A stretch of DNA of 38,673 bases from Spirogloea muscicola (taxonomy: Eukaryota; Streptophyta; Zygnematophyceae; Spirogloeales; Spirogloeaceae). Below, piece after piece: positions 6,364 through 38,673 of the stretch. The stretch spans positions 165,592 through 204,264 of the forward strand of contig WELB01000082.1 of the NCBI GenBank assembly GCA_009602725.1, written 5' to 3'. Made by a program: the position numbers and the translations under genes. The number at the start of each line of letters is the position of its first letter. The stretch's first letter is position 1. The notes below the pieces were generated by a model that was not told the origin of the DNA, did no database searches, and saw only the letters and a list, made by a program, of their open reading frames with translations.

Positions 6364-7600
6364 AGAGAAGAAGTCATAAGAGATGGAGGTACATGGACAT
6401 CTAGCGCTGTGGTTCCATTTGCAAACTCCTCAAAAAGCCACCTAGGGCTAAGCCCGTGGCAAGCGAGTACCTCATGGACCACAAGCTGTCCGAGATTGAC
6501 GACTTAGGAAGCCACAAGAAAACATAGACACTGATAATGCATCACTCGCAAGCGCTTGCCTTGTTTCTTGACTGCCTCTGCACTGCCGCCTTCATCCCGA
6601 TCAACAGAGAGGTGAGAGCCATGGTAGTAGCAGCGTGGCAATGAAACAAAATTGATGCCCTCGTCCAACAGGCCAAAGCAGTGGCAAGGTCTTGATATGA
6701 ATGGTCAGCCAGATGTATGTCTCTTATCGTCAGAGATTCTTCTGATGCCGTGCCTTGCTGCAGATGGCAACTCTTGGTGCAGGGTATCGTCCGGCACCCT
6801 GTGCCGAGGAGACACTGAATCTAGATGTCCACACAGGCTTGGCAGCCTTTCTCCACCAACAAAGCGCTTACATCGAGCCTGCGCGAGGGGGGTTCAGACA
6901 CGTCTACGCCACAGCCCTCTTAGCCGTAGTCCAGGCAGACGCCCTCAACCATCCGTCGTGCCCTCCAAACGGTGGAGGCTTGGCCCTGGCCTGGCAAATA
7001 GGCGGAGGGTGCGCAGGGTCCTCCGCGCACCTGTGCCAGCCACAAATGATGCACCCGCTCATGGGCCACCATCAGCAACATGCATAGGTTGTCGTGGTGA
7101 CGTCAGGGCGGGCGTATGGTTTGGCGCTCAGGAACAACAGGAACAACAGGCGAACCCTTATGGGCAGAGATCCAAAGACGCTCAGGAAGCCGACCTGCCA
7201 CGAGAAGCGGCACCGCCTGGCTGCCGAGGAGGCCAGAGTGAACGACGGGGGTGCTCGCAACGAGCGACGGGATGGGGTTTGGAGGCCGCCGGGCTGCACA
7301 GCGGGCATGGCATGACGCAGCATCGGCGGCGGCGGTCAGACAGAGATACTCCTGCACCACTTATGTCAAGTTCCAAGACAGCTGCGCGGATGCAGAGCGC
7401 TTCGGCCTGGCGGCAGCCACTGCGGCCTATCGCCAGATGGAGCGGGCCACCGTTGGGGCTTCGCCAATTGTGCGGCCGCGCCGGGCTTGCCTGATGTGCC
7501 GCGCGGCGCGGGCCAGCGCCCTGTCCAGACGGCGCACCTGCGACCGGCGGCGGCGGCGGCGGCGGCGGAGGCGGCGGCGGCNGGCTGGAATGTCACGAGA
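6364..7600. other. Region without a recognised gene
   Basis: Several frames are open but none is recognised. On the + strand 6405-6527 encodes a short K/E-rich segment with AKPVASEYLMDHKLSEIDD before a TAG, looking more protein-like than its surroundings, with a possible acceptor just before it. A + strand frame at 6755-7087 (about 110 codons) and frames at 7094-7323 are compositionally ambiguous. The region ends in a (CGG)n run containing a single N at 7582. No minus-strand frame of note exists between 6483 and 7072. Confidence 0.35.
7548..7582 (+). repeat. (CGG)n microsatellite ending in N
   Basis: A run of about eleven CGG triplets with one GAG interruption ends in a single undetermined base. 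The sequence character changes beyond it, so this may be a place where the assembler joined contigs. Confidence 0.85.
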
Positions 7601-7734
7601 AAAGTGGCATGAATCCTGGGGTCCTGCGGGGGTGGCTGTTAAGAGCCGCCATTGTGTTGATGGAGATGCGTTAGCGCGGCGGACGGCGCGAGAGAAATGC
7701 ACGTGCCTCTCCCCAAGGTGGCGACGGCATGTGA

Positions 7735-8010
7735 ACTGCAAGCCCGAAAAGAAAGTGGGGGAGGGCTCGCCCACAGAAAAGGAGGGGCCAGCAAAGCCAG
7801 CCCAGAAAAGAATGGACAATGTCCGCGGGCCTCAAAAGGCCACAAAGCAGTGCACAAAGGAAAGTGCTCGCCCATAGAGAAGAGGGGCTGGCAAGGCCAG
7901 CCCGGACATAATGGACAATGTCCAAAGCCAAAGAAAGAAGTGATACTCCCAATGGGGCAAGGGCTGTGAAAAGCCAGCCCGAAAAAGAATTGACAAAGGT
8001 TCGAAGGGGC
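7735..8010 (-). repeat. Tandem array of the hairpin repeat
   Basis: Three to four head-to-tail copies in minus orientation. Their cores fall at about 7789-7824, 7888-7923 and 7961-8002, with a weaker one near 7738. Each carries gccagccc, then gaaaagaat and ggacaatgtcc or a close variant. Spacing is 99 then about 75 bases. The copies differ by about one base in five, so the array is old or made of different subfamilies. Confidence 0.8.
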
Positions 8011-8165
8011 CAAATGACGGAGGGGCCTAAGAAGCGCTAAGCAGCTACGCATAGCCTCTTCAGGCCACGCAGTCGCTGCTTAGCTCGTTTGGCCCTTTCG
8101 AACCTTGTCAATTCTTTCGGGCTGGCTTCTCACAGCCCTTGCCCCCATTGGAAGAGCCACTTCTT
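7945..8165. repeat. Fold-back pair of hairpin repeats
   Basis: The minus-oriented copy at 7945-8035 and the plus-oriented copy at 8072-8165 are near-exact reverse complements. Both carry caatggg(g)gcaagggctgtg, agccagcccga, gaattgacaa(a)ggttcga and ggccaaa, and the similarity runs on to ctaagcagc at the inner edge. About 35 bases separate the arms. The layout is that of a fold-back or MITE-like element. Confidence 0.8.
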
Positions 8166-8170
8166 CTGCT
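8092..8170 (+). repeat. Hairpin repeat, full-length + copy
   Basis: One of the two best-preserved copies. It reads ttcgaaccttgtcaattc, tttcgggctggcttctc, acagcccttgcccccattgg and aagagccacttcttct in order. It is nearly identical to the copy at 13908-13987. GGGCTG and CAGCCC can pair around an eight-base loop. Confidence 0.88.
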
Positions 8171-8214
8171 ACGAAGGGGCCTGAAGATGCTATGTCAGAA
8201 CGGGGGAGGAGAAG

Positions 8215-8462
8215 AAAGAGGCAAGCGCGGCCAGAATAACTGGTGGCTGGGAGAGGCCGCGCTCTGGCGGCGGCCTCCGGCTTCCGTCAGGGCGACGGCT
8301 TTCCGCCTGTTAGCTATTCAGATTTGCATCTACTGACTAGAGGTTACTGAGAGTCCGCTTGCTGCTGTCTCAGTCCTTAGCACTCCGGCTCCTTCAGACC
8401 TTGTCCATTCCATTGGGCTGGCCTCTCCCAGCCACCACTTAATCTGGCCGCGCTTGCTCTTT
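8215..8462. repeat. Small element with 43-bp terminal inverted repeats
   Basis: Left arm 8215-8257 and right arm 8420-8462 are reverse complements except for a few bases (both contain gcaagcgcggccag, then tggtggctgggagaggcc). The 160-base interior carries the short conserved frame at 8276-8350, and a hairpin-repeat core (accttgtccattcc, gggctggcctctcccagcc) lies across the right arm. Size and inverted ends fit a non-autonomous transposable element. No target-site duplication is obvious. Confidence 0.72.
8276..8350 (+). other. Conserved repeat-borne peptide, copy 1
   Basis: A frame reading SGFRQGDGFPPVS then YSDLHLLTRGY and TGA. The same peptide with other codons ends minus-strand frames at 18540-18466 and at about 8640-8563, and appears at 30788-30855 and 38401-38339. 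It looks like the C-terminal end of a protein once carried by a mobile element. No start codon or longer intact gene is attached to it here. Confidence 0.6.
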
Positions 8463-8496
8463 AAAAGCTCTTCAAAGGAATGGACAAGGTCTGAAA
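8388..8496. repeat. Inverted pair of hairpin-repeat halves
   Basis: At 8393-8436 is a + copy (cagaccttgtccattcc then gggctggcctctcccagcc). At 8466-8496 is the start of a second copy in the opposite direction (aaaggaatggacaaggtctg). The two make a second, smaller fold-back next to the one at 7945-8165. Confidence 0.7.
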
Positions 8497-8562
8497 AACA
8501 GGTGCCGAGAAAGGACTACACCTCAAACAACTACAAAACACAAGACAATGCAATGAGGAAGC

Positions 8563-8640
8563 TCAGTACCCGCAAGTGAGCAACATCAGGTCGGAGTAGC
8601 TCGCTGCACGAAACGATTGACACGGAAAGACTGCCGACCG
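8563..8640 (-). other. Conserved repeat-borne peptide, copy 2
   Basis: The minus strand reads FRAASYSDLMLLTCGY and then a stop (TGA). It terminates an open frame that begins far upstream (to 8946), but the upstream part shares nothing with the other copies, so only the tail is considered meaningful. Confidence 0.55.
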
Positions 8641-8757
8641 ACCACTGGCCACTGGCCGTGAAGCTATGTTCGGAAGGGCCGCCGCCACCCCTCCTCCTAA
8701 ACCCCGGGCCGCCGCCGGCGCCGTCGCCGTCGCCGTGGGGTCCGCAGCGGCGTGCTC

Positions 8758-8819
8758 CTTGCCTTGTTTCTTTGCCCCTTGGCCACTCAAGCCAAGGGGC
8801 AAAGAAAAACGAAGGCAAG
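8758..8819. repeat. Strong 62-nt hairpin
   Basis: A 16-bp perfect stem (ttctttgccccttggc paired with its complement at 8791-8806) closes a 7-base loop, cactcaa. After a short bulge an outer 8-bp stem follows (cttgcctt with aaggcaag). The same sequence words, cttgcctt and cttggccactca, recur unpaired in the repeats near 13770 and 38270, so this is probably a rearranged member of that repeat. A small-RNA precursor role is possible but unsupported. Confidence 0.75.
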
Positions 8820-9004
8820 CCCCTCCATCGCTCAATGCACGCTCCGTTTCTCGACTCCACTTGCTGTAGCAGCAGACTACAACCGGTCGTTGCGGCTCCA
8901 TTCCCTTGCCACGTATCGCGCGCGTGGTGAGCCGGCTTGCACGCACGCGTACTTCTCAGGCGCGTCAAGGTCTTCTCGCTCTTGCCTTAGCCGCGTGGTT
9001 TAAG

Positions 9005-9360
9005 CGCCATTCGGCCTTCGGACGTTGTCCTTTCTGGGCTGGCTTTCCACAGCCCACGCCCGCCTTTGAAAGAGCTCCCTTTCGTTTCATGTACACTGCG
9101 CGCTTCTATTCCGCTGTTCTGAGGCCGGCGTTGACCCGGGAAGGCGCTGTGCGGGAAGAAACAGCTGTTCTCTGCTGCTGTTGTCTCCCACTTGCAGCTG
9201 CCGAAAGGTTTACAGAGCAGGCACCCTTACTCTTATCCACGTTGTCCGACTCCTTGGACCTTCTTCATACTTCGTGGGCTGGGCTTTCACAGCCCTTGCC
9301 CACTTCAGAAGAATTGCTTCTTCTCTTGCGCGGCCTCTCACAGCCATCGCCTTGCCTTAA
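9005..9360 (+). repeat. Two or three divergent hairpin-repeat copies
   Basis: Copy at 9012-9075 (cttcggacgttgtcc, tgggctggctttccacagcc) and copy at 9238-9315 (ccttcttcatacttcg, gggctgggctttcacagccc, ttgcccacttcagaag). A fragment ggcctctcacagcc follows at about 9332-9347. All are + strand and about 20-30 percent diverged from the best copies. Confidence 0.7.
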
Positions 9361-9585
9361 GGGCAGTGTCTGTAAGAGAAGGCGCGCGGTGCACATGAAA
9401 CGGCTGTAAGTGGAAGGAGGCGGCCCGCCTGGAGCCTGAGGCGACCTAGAGAATTGAACAAGGGAATGCAGGCAGACTAGGGAGCTCCTCTAGGTGGCGC
9501 CTGACCTAGAGCCGCCTCTGAGAGAGATGGAGCGTGGTACGCATGAGATGTAAATGCGGCCAAGTCAAGCCAGCCCACTGCTCAG

Positions 9586-13300: not shown

Positions 13301-13907
13301 GGCCGCCGCCGCCGCCGACGGGCATGCGCGCCGGAGGACGGCCCTCGGCAGCCCCGCCGCAGCCAGCAGCGCCAGCCTCATGCGCAGTGCCGCCGCCGCG
13401 CCCNGCGGACGCGGCTCGGTGACCAACAGCACTTCTCCCTGCGCAGGTCCGCTCCCGGAGCGGGCCCGGCCAGCGGCCACGTGGCAGTCCACTGTGCGGC
13501 GGTTCTGTGCGATCATGCTAGGGGCACACTAGCATTCCTCGGGGCATTAGTTGCAATTATGAAGTTAAACCTGTCGGGGATTTCCACACGCTTGACTCGT
13601 GGGTTACTAACGTCCCTTTTCAGCCGCATTCCCAGTGTCACCTTAACCCCGCTTTGCACTAGGGCTTCGCCTTATGTAGCCACTTTTCTCGCCTGCCACT
13701 GCTGCCGCCCCTACTTCTCCAGCAGCTCCAGTCACGTACATTTCGTGTAGTTGAAACGAACGAAGGCCAAATGGCCAAGTACAAAGGCAAGCACATCTTA
13801 AGACCTACGTAACCTACAGTAGACCCGCTCGGTAACCACGGGTCAAAACAAGTAGCTGCTAGCTGCTAGCGGCTACATCATTTGATGTGCTTTGCCTTCG
13901 TACTTGT

Positions 13908-13987
13908 TTGGCCCCTTCGAACCTTGTCAATTCTTTTCGGGCTGGCTTCTCACAGCCCTTGCCCCCATTGGGAGAGCCACTTCTTCT
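13908..13987 (+). repeat. Hairpin repeat, full-length + copy
   Basis: Almost identical to 8092-8170: cccttcgaaccttgtcaatt, cttttcgggctggcttctca, cagcccttgcccccattggg and agagccacttcttc. These two copies give the best view of the unit. The word gccttcgtacttg just before it also appears next to the copy near 38270. Confidence 0.88.
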
Positions 13988-14202
13988 TTGTACTTGGCCA
14001 TGGTGGCCTTCGATTGTTTCAAATACACGAAATCTCTCCTTTTCTCACCATCCCTTCCCTGAGCGGTGTTTTGACTCGGATTCGCCTCCCACTCATACCG
14101 TGCGCAGCGCATGCCCTTTCTGCCTTGTATACGGCCACTCAGGCCCCTCCACTCAATTCACACTCAATCCCCTGCAACATAACAGCCGCCAGAGCCAGCT
14201 CC

Positions 14203-14720: not shown

Positions 14721-17700
14721 ATGCCCAATTTCCCACTGATTAGTGGGGACGTCCTTGCGACGTCCAACGGCAACGGTTCCGCCTCACCAAAGGCCAAGCA
14801 TGCGGTCGTCTGCGGCGGCGGCGTCATCGGGGCCTGCACCGCCTACTTCTTGGCGCAGAAGGGCGTCAGCGTCACGCTTGTGGAGAAGTGCGCAGGTGAG
14901 GCCTCTTGCTCCCTCTCTTGCAGCTAGTCGCCGTGACCGGGAGCACGTCGGGCCTCCCGTAGGTGCTTGCCTAGCGGTCCTCTGTGCACCCAAATGTACA
15001 TCTACGTGCTTATGTATCTTCAGCTTAGGACGCTTTCTACACCCTGTTGGCTGCATCGCGCGATTGATGACATCACCCTCTGATCTCAAATGCCAAGCCC
15101 TTTATTTAGTACACAAACCATATTGATTAAATCAGAAAATACAAGCCATACCTTGCCCCTACATGCAAAGATTCATACTCTCTAAACCTTGGCTTATGCC
15201 ATTCTTCTACTTCCTGCAGTTGCCTGTGCAGCTTCAGGGAAGGCTGGCGGCTTTCTGGCTTATGATTGGAATGACCGGAGCCCGGTCAAGGAGCTGGCCA
15301 GAGCCAGCTTCAAGCTTCACAAACAGCTGGCGTCAGAGTTGAAGCAGGACTACGGATATCGTAGTGTCAGTGCTCTGAGCTTGAGCGTCAAAGAGCCTGC
15401 TGCCACTTCCAAGCCCTCCAAGGAGTCCCACAAGGTGAGCACAGTGTCACATGTGTCTGTATCCTTGATGTCCTCAAGAGTATCACGTCATGGACCCTCA
15501 AGCATGACCAATTGTTCAGGGTCTCCTGCAAAGAGTAGCTCCTGCTCACATCTAAGGCAGGACCTTCCAGAGGCGGTGTCTTACCTTGCTCGACTGATGA
15601 GCTCTTGTGGCACACGGTTGACTTTTGAAAGACGAAAGGAGGGCTGCCCTCATGGATTGATGGGCCAGTCAGATCAGCTGCTGAGATTGGCAACGAGGTG
15701 ACAACTGCCCAAGTGCATCCACAACTCTTCACGAGGGCAGTTGTGGGTACTGCTGTGGAGAAGTATGGTGTCAAGGTGCTCTTTTCCAGATTAGAGTTTT
15801 GTGGCATATTGTAGTATTCCATGTACTTTGATATGGATTCAAGAAGCTCGCCTATCTCCTTGCTTGCCTCAGTCCAGCAGCCTGGTCCGTGTCCTGCCTT
15901 CACCATGATGTATAGCGCAGGTGTATCTTGACGGCCAAAACCCTCTGTTAGCTTGCTTGGAGTTGATATTGACATTCTACTGACCTTCTCTTCAGCATTC
16001 AATTCTTCAAATTCAGGTGCAAATAGGAGAAGTCCAGGACATTGAAGTGGACAGGCTCGGGCCGAGGTACTAGAATCTCTTGCCTTGGATGCTGCCACTA
16101 GTGCTCATGCTATGTAGGAACATAGGCAAAGAGTTTCTTCCAAAAGGACATATCCCTTATGTGTTCACTGTTCTAGCTGAGATATTAAAGAGGTTCTTTT
16201 GACAAATGGACCTTCTGTCTGTACAGCTCCTCAAGAGTAACGGGCGTTGTTGTGAATGGTCAGCTAATACATACAGGTACAGGTTACTGCTCTCTTATGC
16301 TTTTCCATAGGTACTGCAGAACTGCAACTAGCACCACTCGCCTTGCCTGTCTTCATGTCCTTGATTCATATGAGCTGTTTGTGTTGCTGGATGTGCACGG
16401 GGGGTAGAAATTCCATTTACAAAGCTTTCAATTGTTTCGCTGGTTATGCACGGGAGGTAGTAACTACAGTCACAAAGCTTTCAACAATTAGTTGTGACCC
16501 CTAGCTGCACAGCTTTCACCTTCTCAATTGTCAAGGCTCTCTGCTAACATCAACGTCAGATGCTGTGGTGCTCGCTATGGGGCCTTGGTCCAATCGCCAC
16601 AAGCTCATCTCCCAGGTAAGCGTGCCATCAGCCGAGGCTCACCTTTCTTCATGACTACTGGGGAGGAATGGGTAGTCGTGTAGCTGATGTATTCATGCCC
16701 TAAACCCTCTGTTAGCTCGGTGACCTAGTGTGAGCCTTGCGATGCCCAGCAAGCATAGGCACCAGCTGTCTCCTCTGCTTTAGTGACCTCTCTGACGCCT
16801 CGACTTGCTGATCGTGCGGGCTCTTTCCATCTGTGTGTTGGGCAGCTGACAACGATCACTGGCCTCAAAGCCAACAGCATCGTGCTGCGCCCAAAGCAGC
16901 CTGACAACATCTCCCCTCACTGTCTCTTCCTCACTTACAGGTCCAAGATTCGACCTCGCTTCGTGCCCACTACTTGCACAAAGCCAACTGGAATCTGTGT
17001 GACAATTGCAGATCTCACGGACTGGCATGCTGTCTGCTACTGAGAGTACTGCGCCTGGCGGCGCCGCACCTTGACCTCTATTGCATGGCAGAACCCAATC
17101 TGGCAAAGAGATGGACCCTGAGATCTACCCCCGAGCAACCGGCGAGGTGTATGTGTGCGGTGTCTCAAGTACGGAGGAGGTGCCAGAGGATCCTGCAAGC
17201 ATACTTCCAACACCTGGGGCTCCTGATATGTTGAAAAGGTCGGGCTTTCTGGCCCATGTCATCAACAGGACCTGATATTGGCATTGGGCTGGTTGTTTCA
17301 ATGTGAGGCTTTGTCGCCTCTGAGGATGCACACTCGCCCTTTGGTATTGGAGAAAATCAATCATTTCTGTCTGTGCTGTCCTGCCGAAGGCACGTGGTAA
17401 TTGGCCCGCCACTGGTAGCTGATTGAGTGTGTCGCATGTGTGGCAGGGTGGCTCTGACAGTTTCCAGCGAGCTTGCTGAGGCAGAGGTCACAGTAGAGCA
17501 GGCCTGCTTCTTACCATGCTCAGCGGACGGCATTCCTGTCATAGGTACGCACCTTACCCAGCTCGCTGTGGCATGGAAAGGTCGATGCCACTGATAAAGC
17601 GGGCCTTCCTGGTAACCTTCTGTGGCTGCATGACAAGGTGCACACCGCCATGGGATCTGCAGGTATGATTCCGGGCGTGGAAGGCGCATATGTTGGGACG

Positions 17701-18159: not shown

Positions 18160-18412
18160 AAAGTTGGACAAGGTAGAGAAGTAGCGTCTTCCAAAGGGAG
18201 ACGAAGGCTGCAACAGGGCAGCCCAGACAATATCCAGAAGAGACGGTGGAGAGGGGAGCCCCAACAAGAAAGCAGGTAGGGTGATGGCCCGCCAGTATAA
18301 GTTGATGCGCTTCTCAAGGAGCCGCTAGCACGCAAGGCGAGAGAAAGAGCACTTCCAAAGTGGGCGAGGGCTGTGGAGAGCCAGCCCGATAAGAGTGGAC
18401 AAGGTTCGATGG
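18160..18412 (-). repeat. Two minus-strand hairpin-repeat copies
   Basis: The copy at 18160-18240 is divergent: read on the minus strand its stem is ggctgc with gcagcc instead of the usual GGGCTG with CAGCCC. The copy at 18345-18412 is better preserved (tcgaaccttgtccactc, gggctggctctccacagccc). The peptide module at 18540-18466 lies just upstream of it on the same strand. Confidence 0.75.
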
Positions 18413-18465
18413 GACCGAGAAGTGCTTAACCACACAACTAAGCAAGTCCCGCAGAGGATGGTTAA

Positions 18466-18540
18466 TTAGTAACCTCTAGTTAGCAGCCGCAGGTCAGAAA
18501 GACTAGCCGCCGGAAGGCAGTCCAATTGACGAAAGCCAGA
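18466..18540 (-). other. Conserved repeat-borne peptide, copy 3
   Basis: The minus strand reads SGFRQLDCLPAAS then LSDLRLLTRGY and a TAA stop. Over 24 residues it matches the peptide at 8276-8350 at about 17 positions, though codons differ (for example tct-gac-ctg against tca-gat-ttg for Ser-Asp-Leu). Downstream, about 60 bases later, lies a hairpin repeat. Confidence 0.62.
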
Positions 18541-18984
18541 GACTGTAACTAGAGCACGGCCAGCGCGCAAGTGCAAGGTGTGGGCCAAGGACTGTGGAGT
18601 AATGTGGACAGGAGCATGTGAAACTCCTGCGCCAGCAAGCAAGCGGTGCTGAAGTTGGACTGTCGCTCCGCAGGACACAGCGCGGCGTGCAGCCCTGGTC
18701 AACAGGTCTAGCCATCGATACCGGGAAGCTCCGTGCACACCGATGGCCGTTGATGCGAACGAGTCCCTTTCTGGATGGTCCGTGTACTTGGCCTCCTTGC
18801 CACGAGCCGCGATCACTGCTGCATGCCCAGTTTTCGAAGCTGAGAGCCCCGGATTGGAGTGGTCAACCACATCTGGGTTGACCTATGTCTCGATGATGCG
18901 TGGAGAGGAAGCTCGACGCCGTGCACCTGAACGAATATAGATAATTAGCTCATCCGAAGGGGGCGAGGATGTAATGAAAGATGC

Positions 18985-20592: not shown

Positions 20593-23500
20593 ATGGCGGC
20601 CCCCCCCCCGNNNNNNNNNNNNNNNNNNNNNNNNNNNNNNNNNNNNNNNNNNNNNNNNNNNNNNNNNNNNNNNNNNNNNNNNNNNNNNNNNNNNNNNNNN
20701 NNNNNNNNNNNNNNNNNNNNNNNNNNNNNNNNNNNNNNNNNNNNNNNNNNNNNNNNNNNNNNNNNNNNNNNNNNNNNNNNNNNNNNNNNNNNNNNNNNNN
20801 NNNNNNNNNNNNNNNNNNNNNNNNNNNNNNNNNNNNNNNNNNNNNNNNNNNNNNNNNNNNNNNNNNNNNNNNNNNNNNNNNNNNNNNNNNNNNNNNNNNN
20901 NNNNNNNNNNNNNNNNNNNNNNNNNNNNNNNNNNNNNNNNNNNNNNNNNNNNNNNNNNNNNNNNNNNNCGGCGCAGGCGCAGGCGGCGGGCGCGGCGCCG
21001 CTGCCGCTGGCCGCCGCCAAGGCCGCCTTCCTGGCCAAGCAGGTCGCGTACGAGGTGAGCGCGAACGGCTAAGCCACGCCGCGCTCGGCCCTCGCCCCTC
21101 GCCCCCTCACTGTCTCCGCAAGCTCTCGCTGCCATCGTCACCTCTAGATGGCCCGCAGCGATTCGGACGTGCTCGACTCGTGGGGTTGTAGTATCGCCTC
21201 GCCTGTGCCGTCGTATGTGCTGGAAGAGGACTTAGCTGACTGGCTGACGACTGCCGCTACCCCGCGCCCAGCGACTGGCGGCGCCGTTTGACGAGCTGCG
21301 GGCGGCGGAGTACGCGCACCTGGACAAGGGCCGGCGTGCGTGCCTGAGCTACTCGGGCGTCGGCCTCTTCTCGCACGCGCAGCAGGTGGGCCTCCCCCTT
21401 TCTGTGTGCACCTGGCTGGCTTTTACAGCCGCTCTTTAAGCATCAGCAGCCGCATCCTCTCTCGGCTGCCACCGCCCTCCCCTTGTCCTGCTTCGCACTG
21501 CAGCTCTACGCCATGTGTGGCAGTGGCATGCTCAAGCCACAGGAAGGCTTGGCAGCCGTTGGGTTTGTCCGTGGTCGCTTTCTGCTGGTCAATGCCATGC
21601 TCGCGCCTTGTGACCTGTGGCTGACGCGCACGCTCGCCTGCCTGTTGTAGGGGGATGAGGAGATTGCCAATCAAACGCTTCCGAGCTTCAACTTCAACTT
21701 CGTCAACTCGGGGGGCAGCCTCAGCCCGAAGGCGCTGGAGGTGACCATTGCGCCTCTGTTGGCGTCTGAAGCGACTGTGAGCGCTTACTCCACAGCCGCA
21801 CTCGACCTCTAGTTTGGCGCTGACCGTCGTCCCTTGCCCTTGCAGAACATGCTCGCTGAGGAGGAGCCGCTGGAGAAGGAGTTGCGGGAGAGAGTTGCCG
21901 AGTTCTTGCAGGCACCGCAGCGCGACTACTACGCCTTGCTCGTGCCTTCCAGCGACTCTGCACTGCAGGTGTCACCCCCACCCTTTACGCCCTCGTGCCG
22001 GGCAAAGCTCAGCTGCGTAAACCTCGCCTGTACTGGCTCCACGTGGCAAGTGTTGGAGACTTGCTCCTTGAATTGAAGCTGGAGGTCAATGCTGCGCAGC
22101 TGCTGTCGGAGGTCTACCCGTTCATGGAGACGAGCAGCCTCTTCACTGTATACGACCACCCGAACAAGGGCATCGAGCCGCTCCAAAAGGCTGCTGCAGC
22201 CTCTGGCGCTGCCCTTGTGACGCCCAAAATATCCTGGCCCGACCTCGTCGTCAACGGCCGAGACTTGAGCAGGTGCAGATTGCTGAGAGCACCCGATCGT
22301 GTGAATCGCTTTGATCAATGGCATGCGCCTGGCTCCCTCTGCACTGTCTGACTTCCGCACTACAAGATGTTGTCATGTTATAGTATAAAGATATGAGGCT
22401 GATATCATGTTGCCCGGCGTAGGCTGCTGTGCGAGGACGGCAAGGCCGGCAAGGATGGCGGCGCCGGTGGCATCGGCGGCGCTGCCAAAGGGCTCTTTGT
22501 GCTGCCGGTGCAGTCGGAAGTGACGGGGGCCAAGGAGCGGCTCGACTGGCTGGCGACTGCCGCGCAGCAGGGCTGGCACACGCTGCTGGACGCCACTGCC
22601 GCGTCGCCAGGCGAGGAGCTCTGCATTGCACTTCACAGGCCCGACTTCGTCGTGGCCTCCTTCTACAAGGTCGACCGGCGTTGCGCCTTACCAAGCGGCG
22701 CCGCAGCTCGGCACGTTCTTGCTGGCTCTGGCAGCTGAGGACCGGAGGCGGTCTCCTGATGCAGCTTTCGGAGCCAAATGCAGGTTTTTGGCGAGGATTC
22801 TGGAGGCTTTGCCTGCCTGCTGGTGAAGCGCGGCCTGTCGCTGCCGCCGCTGCCGCCGCCACCTGCCGCCGCCGCTGGCAACAAGGGCCCGCCCCGGCTC
22901 TCGCTCGACGTGCTCGTGGCCAAGGGGGCGACCGCTGCCGCGGCCGATGATGTCGTTGTTGGGCTTCCTTTGGTGGTTGCGACTGACCAGGAGTCGTCCG
23001 GGCGGTCCTCCTCCTCGTCCTCCTGCTCATCCTCCTCGCCCTCCACGCCGTCCCTGGCGTCCTCCGCCTCCTGCCCGCTGATCCTGGATGCATTGCCGGC
23101 GGCCGCCAGCCGGACCGCCGCTGCCGCCGCCGCTGCCGCTGCTGTCGTTGGTGAGAGGCCGTCTGCTCAGGAGGCGCCATGGTACATCTTGTCTTCCCCG
23201 GCAACAACATCGGCGGCCTCCTCGTCACCGGCCTCATCCATCAGCCAGGAAGACGATACGGCCGCCCACGCAGACAGTGCTGAATGGGACGAGGCAGCCT
23301 CAGAAAAGCCCACATGTATTTTGCAGCGGTGGGCCTCACCTCTGATTGCCCTTTGCGAGCATCCATCAGACATGTTGCTACTCGGTCTCGCGAGGAGTTT
23401 GCACTGCAGTACCCGCATACACACTGTGTATGCAAAAACTTTCGTCATCTAATATGTAGCTGGCTAGCTTCGCCGGGCTTGCTGACAGCTGCCCGTCTTG

Positions 23501-30431: not shown

Positions 30432-30458
30432 GCGGCGGTCGCGGCGGCGGCGGCGGGN
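30432..30458 (+). repeat. (CGG)n microsatellite with N
   Basis: Short CGG runs ending in a single N at 30458, in the 5' leader of the aminotransferase gene. The sequence beyond it is repeat-derived, so a misjoin is possible. Confidence 0.75.
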
Positions 30459-30534: not shown

Positions 30535-30672
30535 GTAGAGGCGGTGGCTGTGATTGGCCAGCCCAGACAAAAACTGGAATGAACAAAGTCCGAAGGGGCC
30601 ATGAAGAAGTGGCACTCCCAATGGGGGCAAGGGCTTCGAAAAGCCAGCCCAAAAAGAATTGACAAAGAAGGC
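30535..30672 (-). repeat. Two tandem hairpin-repeat copies
   Basis: Read on the minus strand: 30672-30605 (tttgtcaattctttttggg, ctggcttttcgaagccc, ttgcccccattgggagtgcc) and 30604-30535 (ccttcggactttgttcattc, gggctggccaatcacagcc). They are head to tail and lie upstream of the aminotransferase start. Confidence 0.82.
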
Positions 30673-30787: not shown

Positions 30788-30855
30788 TTCCGGGAGGCGA
30801 CGCTTTCCAACCCTCTCATTTTTCTGATCTGCACTCGCTGACTGGAGGTTATTGG
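30788..30855 (+). other. Conserved repeat-borne peptide, copy 4 (broken)
   Basis: One frame gives CFREATLSNP and another gives FSDLHSLTGGYW, so the module is recognisable only across a frameshift. The stop codon is lost (tgg in its place). This copy is a decayed relative of those at 8276 and 18466. Confidence 0.5.
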
Positions 30856-36400: not shown

Positions 36401-38673
36401 CAGGTGACACCTGATGCTTCAATGGCTGACTACAGCGTCTTCATGGAGGTGTCTTCGTTGTGTGGCTCACTCCTTGCCATGAATCTTCCGGACAGTGCGG
36501 ATGCTGAAGCCAGCAACACTGCGGGCCTCACCCACACGCTCAGGCACGATCTTGAAGAGCGAGGCCACTGCCGGGAAGTGAAGGGACGGCTCACTCGACT
36601 GCAGACGAGAGGCCGCGGCAGGCGCTTGAGCATTGCAGCGCATGACAAGATGAGGAGACGAGTGGCAACATGGCACGGCTCCCTTGGACACGGAGCTTGC
36701 CTGCAGGACTTGGCCAGCGGAGTCGACATAGAGGTACGAATCGCCAGCGCCAGGCGGCATTGCGGGGACAGCGACCAGCGTGTAATGGGAGTCTCCGTGG
36801 GCCCTCAATTGCCAAGCGGCACCGTGCACCGCCTCGTCCATGCTGCCCCTTGGTTCTACCGCCTGCGAGGCCCACGAGTATGAACAGTCGAGCTGCTGCA
36901 AGTCCCTCCTGCCACTGAGGCCGCAGCCGTTCCAGGCGCTCGTTGCCACGCTGATCATTAGAGGCTCCGGCGTCACCGATAGCAGGGCGCCATGAGGGCT
37001 CTGTATGAGGACGTGCGAGAGGTCCGCCAGCTCCAAGCAGAAGCGCTCCCAGCGCTGTGCGCGAGGCCGGTCGCATGCCACTATGCCACGACGCTCGGCC
37101 GAAAGGTAACAGCAGGGAGGGGGTCCGCTGCTGTCGCTGCCGCTGCCGCTGTAGCTTCCTGCTCCTTGTTGAACACCCGGGAGGTACCGCAGCGTAACCT
37201 CGGAGGTGCCCCGGCGACCGGCGCCCTCGAGCTCGAGCACAAATGCCTCCTTGCCGCGCGCCTGGCTGACCTCCGTCGCCAGCACCCGCTGACCGCTGCC
37301 CTCCACGGTCCACTGCGCAAGTGGTGGCCACAGGCAGAGGCGCACCATCAGAGGCTGATTCAGCAGCGAGAGCCAGCCAAGGGTGCAGGAGATCAAGAGG
37401 GCCTCAGCCAAGGGGCATCAAATGCACACCATATGCCGACCCTCGCCAGTGCGAACAACGCACGACCAAGAGTGTTCGTCTGCGCCACTGCTGTCCGCAC
37501 CGCACAGGTCGCGATTACAAGAGCCGGAGGCCAGCAGCAGCGGGGGAGGCTTGAGGTCAAGCAAGAACTCCTCGCAGCAGCATGCTGTCTGCAATTACGC
37601 AGATCAGCAGATGCATCGTGACATGTCAGCAATGCATTAGCCCAAGCCAGCCACTGCCAGGCCAGCAAGTCAAACCAGCAGTGCGATGTGAAAGGGCGCA
37701 GCCGCAAGACTGCCAAGTACCTCGGCGCGAGCGTTGAGGACTGGATGTGCGCTGCACAGGTACTTGCCGGTGTGAGCGCGCAGGTTCACTCGCACGGGGG
37801 CCCGCATGCTCCAGCCGCTGGTTGGTGGGCAGACCCTGAAGATTGGCGCGGCGGGCGGGCAGGCAACAAGCAGCAACTCAGCTGGTCAACCTGCCGAGGG
37901 CTGCATTGCGGCCAGTTTATGGCAGCATGTGCTGCAGCTCACAGCCAGATCGCCAGCTGCGGCGGCGCGGCACCTCCGGCACTCACTCGGCGGTGCACCT
38001 GGGGAGCCCGTCGCCGAGGTCAGGGACGAGCTGGAACCTCTCCCACGCCCTGGCGACGCGCGTGCCGCACCACATCCGGCCCTCGGGGCTGCACGTGACG
38101 AAGCCGCCCTCGGCGTGCAGGCTCACGACTGCAGCATGACCAAGAGTGGCCGGCTCAGAGGCCGCAGTCGTAGGGACCTTCCAGCCGAGCGCCACTCACT
38201 GACAGAAAGAGCCCCATATATCGATCGGCAAGGCCAGGTAGTGGAGTCTATATTGAGTTGTGGAGGGCCTGAGTGGCCAAGTACGAAGGCAAGCACATTG
38301 ACAGATGTACACCACCTGCTGCTAAACTGACCCGCTCGGTAACCACAAGTCAGCACGTAGAGGTCGCTGACTGACGCCCGGATACCAGACGGCAATTGAC
38401 AAGCCCTTGTGCCCAGGCAGGCGTGCGCACACAGCGGCCAACAGGCGCGACATGATCCTGGAGTGCGACAGGCGCGGCGGCGACGACGGATCGGCCGCGC
38501 GCGGCGGCGCGGTGGCGCATGGAGTGCGTGCGTGGCTCACATTGGCCGCCGAAGAGGGCGATGAAGAAGTGCGCCGCATCCGCGCGGCTGCGGACGAGGC
38601 AGAGCTCCCGGTTGCGGCACGCCAGGTACCGCGCCGGCGGCGCGCCGTCCCCGGCGCCGGCCGCGGCGGCGGC
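33488..38673 (-). CDS. Fascin-like beta-trefoil repeat protein, 5' end outside window
   Basis: Predicted exons on the minus strand: window edge-38541, 38128-37999, 37835-37721, 37588-37430, 37354 to about 36520, 36302-35985, 35782-35667, 35539-35326, 35227-34895, 34708-34571, one or more uncertain exons around 34420-33600, and a last exon ending in TGA at 33488. The first half has repeated trefoil-like units: VSLHAEGGFVTCSPEG with ARAWERFQLV, VNLRAHTGKYLCSAHP, CCYLSAERRGIVACDRP with AQRWERFCLE, and RYLSAEPNGAITARR with GHWEVFRLIDVD. This is the pattern of fascin and actin-cross-linking-like folds. The second half is helical and unrecognised (for example AISREELSLPFSIPAFLLAA, then HYRFLELQFHV) and ends with LYLEKASSWMQSCAKDVLQ. 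The join between the fifth and sixth exons does not close in phase, so a small exon is missing or these are two genes. The first intron holds a repeat copy. Confidence 0.58.
38258..38401 (-). repeat. Peptide module and repeat words inside an intron
   Basis: The minus strand gives LPSGIRA then SVSDLYVLTCGY at 38401-38339 (no stop directly after). It is followed by gtgcttgccttcgtacttgg and ccactcaggccc, the same words that precede the hairpin repeat at 13908. The hairpin unit itself is not recognisable here. This copy sits in the first intron of the fascin-like gene, showing that the repeat also enters genes. Confidence 0.6.

Follow-up and report, generated by a model that had tools for sequence, protein, structure and literature searches.

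The window analysed here, a stretch of 38,673 nucleotides from the genome of Spirogloea muscicola, raises the question of whether a short peptide, read repeatedly at scattered places with freely varying codons, is what remains of a protein, and of what kind of genetic object that protein would have been part. The scattered repeats are real, and five badly eroded copies share a short stretch beyond what chance would give. The family features a codon-phase pattern, neighbouring repeat modules and, at two of its copies, inverted arms. Most simply, the shared stretch is viewed as the leftover tail of a mobile-element gene.

The window has a G+C content of 56.6% and carries what look like interrupted genes. 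Neither a tRNA nor an Rfam family at gathering score was detected over its whole length. An exon resembling phosphoribosylanthranilate isomerase, seemingly part of an interrupted gene, lies at 2403-2723 on the minus strand (Pfam PRAI, E 2.5e-4; 21.2 bits, slightly under the curated cut-off of 22.7), and an Armadillo-repeat-like piece lies at 908-1312 on the plus strand (Pfam Arm, E 1.8e-4). A 53-nt unit is present as a tandem pair at 16379-16484, with 81% identity. Assembly marks consist of a single N at 7582 and at 30458, both adjoining runs of CGG repeats, and a 358-base gap at 20611-20968.

Copies of the motif

The motif is present in multiple dispersed copies, five of them plus one very weak. 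Copy c1 (8276-8350, plus strand) reads SGFRQGDGFPPVSYSDLHLLTRGY followed by a stop, and another stop codon lies 13 codons ahead of its SGFRQ, without ATG in between. Copy c2 (8563-8640, minus strand), placed tail to tail with c1, ends in FRAASYSDLMLLTCGY and a stop, and c3 (18466-18543, minus strand), whose DNA is 70% identical to that of c1 across 94 nt, reads VSGFRQLDCLPAASLSDLRLLTRGY, again with a stop. Copy c4 (30796-30855, plus strand) reads GDAFQPSHFSDLHSLTGGY and copy c5 (38336-38398, minus strand) reads QLPSGIRASVSDLYVLTCGY. The very weak copy c6 (13827-13852, minus strand; E 2.1), not listed in the sequence-only reading from which this work started, has its 3' flank in common with c5 (13772-13845 and 38274-38352, identity 76%), and this flank differs from that of c1-c3.

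That reading had placed the peptide at five positions, and copies were indeed found at about those places, beyond chance, although the peptide pattern is not as uniform as described. In six-frame translation the ending S.SDL.LLT.GY is exact in c1-c3 and looser in the other two, so that three copies read SDLxLLTxGY with a stop and c4 and c5 read SDLxxLTxGY without one. The stop said to follow the peptide stands at the same place in c1, c2 and c3 (TGA, TGA and TAA, respectively) but is replaced by TGG in c4 and CGA in c5, and the preceding SGFRQ is seen in only two of the five copies, c1 and c3. The free use of codons was borne out, with Ser written as TCA, TCC, TCT and AGC and Leu as TTG, CTG, CTC and CTA.

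A DNA profile built on c1-c3 alone retrieved c4 at E 1.2e-4 and c5 at E 6.2e-3, the next match having E 1.7. When each copy was left out in turn, the profiles recovered c1 at E 0.038, c2 at E 0.061, c3 at E 0.020 and c4 at E 1.9e-4; c5 reached only E 2.8, which equals the background level, and it is for this reason the least certain of the five.

Repeat modules and inverted arms

A module about 80 nt long is scattered over the window in both orientations, and 20 of the 25 matches listed have E<0.02 (11 of the copies served as seeds of the model). One module (8387-8461, plus strand; E 1.7e-14, a seed) starts 37 nt past the stop of c1, another (18342-18418, minus strand; E 4.7e-18, a seed) 48 nt past that of c3, and a weak partial module (8474-8495, minus strand; E 0.011, also found by blastn) lies 68 nt past that of c2. 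Further modules lie on the upstream side of c6 (13907-13986, plus strand; E 1.3e-23) and of c4 (30603-30667, minus strand; E 3.4e-16), both being model seeds. A module in the same orientation is thus present within 80 nt past the stop in three of the five copies, and the module profile scan found none after the motif in c4 and c5. Random placement equalled this association in 7 of 100,000 trials; when placement was confined to hand-picked repeat zones, at least three of the five copies were so accompanied in 2,182 of 100,000, making it only moderately rare.

Inverted repeats enclose two of the copies. Around c1, the arm at 8221-8258 is 95% complementary to that at 8420-8457, while around c6 the arms at 13740-13786 and 13986-14033 pair at 90%. 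Such flanking arms were not found at c3, c4 and c5, nor around c2 among the 5 longest of 25 pairs. By eye, no obvious target-site duplication surrounds the copies, whose element ends are uncertain. A separate fold-back, apparently without the motif, occupies 7935-8166 and consists of inverted modules at 7935-8014 and 8088-8166 with a loop of about 73 nt.

Codon pattern and selection

Across 11 codons and five copies, the codon pairs that differ comprise 44 synonymous and 31 non-synonymous ones, and differences at codon positions 1, 2 and 3 number 35, 19 and 56. A first permutation test, in which 181 of 3000 permutations matched c1 against c3 alone in some frame and a control on the modules gave about 0.05-0.1 in several frames and 6/400 in one, is too lenient with clustered conserved columns. 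It was replaced by a within-triplet shuffle, in which columns are permuted inside each triplet so that their clustering is kept and their phase destroyed. Under this shuffle the mean number of synonymous pairs was 18.6 and the observed 44 was reached in 2 of 5000 replicates; the observed BLOSUM score was reached in 32 of 5000. The pooled pN/pS was 0.35 (10 codons, 10 non-independent pairs), and not the value of about 1 that had been named beforehand as speaking against coding selection. For c1-c3 over 31 codons dN/dS was 0.21, whereas the weakest pair, c3-c5, had a dN of 0.46 against a dS of 0.62, and some pairs with c5 have dN near dS.

Longer pairs were matched in their synonymous counts by few shuffles: 7 of 5000 for c1-c3 over 32 codons, 11 of 5000 for c2-c3 over 18 codons and, ungapped and in one frame, 13 of 5000 for c3-c5 over 21 codons and 204 of 5000 for c1-c4 over 20 codons. 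All these stretches include the same 11 codons, and without them 589 of 5000 shuffles matched c1-c3 (21 upstream codons) and 269 of 5000 matched c3-c5. Moreover, MAFFT placed a 2-nt gap in c5 directly ahead of the motif, which speaks against the ungapped reading.

The other five frames gave values from 0.02 to 0.97, the lowest being frame -1. Coding on the opposite strand was considered and rejected: frame -1 reached 0.0215, and 11/2000 on identity, but in four of the five copies this frame runs into TAA within the motif, and its signal is taken to arise secondarily from the same variable positions. In a control on nine module copies one frame gave 0.018, and 0.01 in one sub-block, so that small values do occur in DNA of this kind. 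Neutral simulations in which both the frame and the location could be selected within 100 nt reached the observed z of 3.65 in 2/400 and 4/400 families under two settings, and in 0/400 when restricted to 33 nt; these rates take no account of the number of repeats that the sequence-only reading had looked at.

The excess of synonymous differences is therefore a good signal, if not an overwhelming one, and it is confined to about 11 codons. The past coding selection proposed earlier is upheld by the codon-phase tests and the pN/pS within these limits, and descent from the coding tail of a protein is likely, though not proven.

Searches for relatives and for structured RNA

The longer homologous frame expected of a parent protein was not found in the window, nor among contigs of bacteria, archaea and viruses, which were scanned narrowly. 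Six-frame self comparison of the window returned 54 pairs at E<=0.01, two of which correspond to the motif (c1-c3 and c1-c4) and none of which extends it; most of the others are modules or arms. The exact motif pattern had no matches in the bacterial, archaeal and viral contigs, a narrow scan because the pattern fits c1 and c3 and not c2, c4 and c5. In viral contigs a looser motif scan matched one stretch, which was unconfirmed, and the module string and the motif string had no matches. In genome contigs the module string was matched exactly 7 times, about as often as chance is estimated to give; all 7 loci carried a single module-like match, the one for which it was fetched, and no motif at E 0.5 or better.

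No parent protein emerged from Pfam (two copies queried) or NCBIfam (five copies queried). One search of PDB sequences gave no matches and another gave four, the best of which, a ribosomal protein at E 0.043, was taken as chance. The string LLTRGY was absent from the literature searched and, as far as the portions of those sources that were available go, no publication on a repeat family with this motif or module was noticed among the matches listed.

A structured RNA was set aside, as no conserved covarying fold was found: the consensus energy was -0.9, to which covariation contributed an unfavourable 0.92, both sides had changed in 2 of the 7 consensus pairs, and the five z-scores were 0.27, 0.94, -1.60, -0.49 and -0.89. 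A tRNA-derived SINE was likewise rejected, since neither a tRNA nor an Rfam match at gathering score was present. A permissive Rfam scan of 7700-9400 gave 14 matches, all under gathering score and mostly miRNA models on one hairpin; the Cyano-2 model overlaps c1 at 14.1 bits (E 1.2), its gathering score being 40. The simple hairpin on which the miRNA models fall lies at 8743-8827, and a near-perfect hairpin at 8758-8819 is matched by several of them under gathering score. Bacterial promoter and terminator models found nothing in 8200-8700, and such models say little about a eukaryote.

Discussion

The repeat is real and its coding tail, now eroded, is probable; objects of this kind are ordinary in eukaryotic genomes. 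The shared stretch has the character of the final dozen residues of a protein, which is curious, though probably not remarkable. With about an even chance of being correct, the copies can be read as decayed non-autonomous elements, fold-back or TIR-like, in which one terminus is still adjoined by the 3' end of a gene otherwise lost. A transposon that retains its ends would also retain the last codons of a gene ending beside the terminal repeat. An internal deletion may accordingly have removed the middle of the element, leaving the last 11-30 codons or so and the stop beside the terminal module. The copies would trace back to separate sub-lineages of a protein that was once active, and most differences between them would have arisen while selection still acted on that protein, ahead of the death of the copies; it is proposed that they differ mainly at silent positions because several sub-lineages lost their middles at different times. 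From the neighbouring modules and the inverted arms we infer that the protein was element-encoded; the modules would then be the element ends and the gene the element's own, possibly a transposase.

The main rival is that the repeat is old and never coded: the motif would be merely its best-kept part, and the codon pattern a chance result picked out from many repeats in six frames each. This is possible but doubtful. It draws on the fact that the whole signal is carried by about 33 nt, to which upstream codons add little and beyond which the window offers no longer frame, on the simulated families that attain the same signal, and on the module control frame at 0.01-0.018. It sits poorly with a pN/pS of 0.35, with the scarcity of phase shuffles (2 of 5000) that reach the observed count, and with three matching stops. 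Less likely are two readings in which the tail belongs to a gene of another kind. The motif could be the final exon in a family of dispersed host genes, live or pseudogenic, with the modules as unrelated neighbours: the ungapped c1-c3 homology (8255-8348) reaches no further than the stop on one side and some 30 codons upstream on the other, as exon limits would have it, and the peptide is kept despite high synonymous divergence. Such an origin is unlikely, given that the stop is missing in two of the five copies, that a same-orientation module follows the stop position in three, and that no other common exon was recognised in the window. Very unlikely, finally, are 5'-truncated copies of a LINE-like retroposon in which the tail of the last ORF survives together with 3' untranslated sequence. 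The copies are truncated upstream and a 3' side is common to c1-c3, and another to c5 and c6; against this reading, these two flanks differ, and the modules are found in either orientation and also as inverted pairs, which would be unexpected for a LINE tail.

Under the preferred reading of decayed fold-back elements, the copies resemble MITEs and fold-back DNA transposons in being short, without an intact gene and dispersed in both orientations, with arms around two of them. They differ in that arms occur at only two of the six copies, no target-site duplication was seen and no parent transposase was found. In the part of the literature on the Foldback-like Galileo of Drosophila that is drawn on here, some copies are nearly complete and others are reduced as far as two TIRs or a solo TIR (PMC3573991), which the module pairs and single modules of the window recall; unlike that element as there described, the present family yielded no transposase of any kind, and its arms are short (38-48 nt). 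It is quite unlikely, though worth stating, that an algal element superfamily encodes an undescribed transposase, or another protein, of which the peptide is the conserved tail; its non-autonomous fold-back copies would keep this tail because the codons also serve as part of the end required for mobilisation.

Should the element reading prove wrong, the locus would serve as an instructive example of a codon-like pattern in old repeats. If it is true, the peptide and the module together would offer a handle to the autonomous element of this lineage's repeat family, and selection on a protein would still be readable in 30-nt scraps of dead elements.
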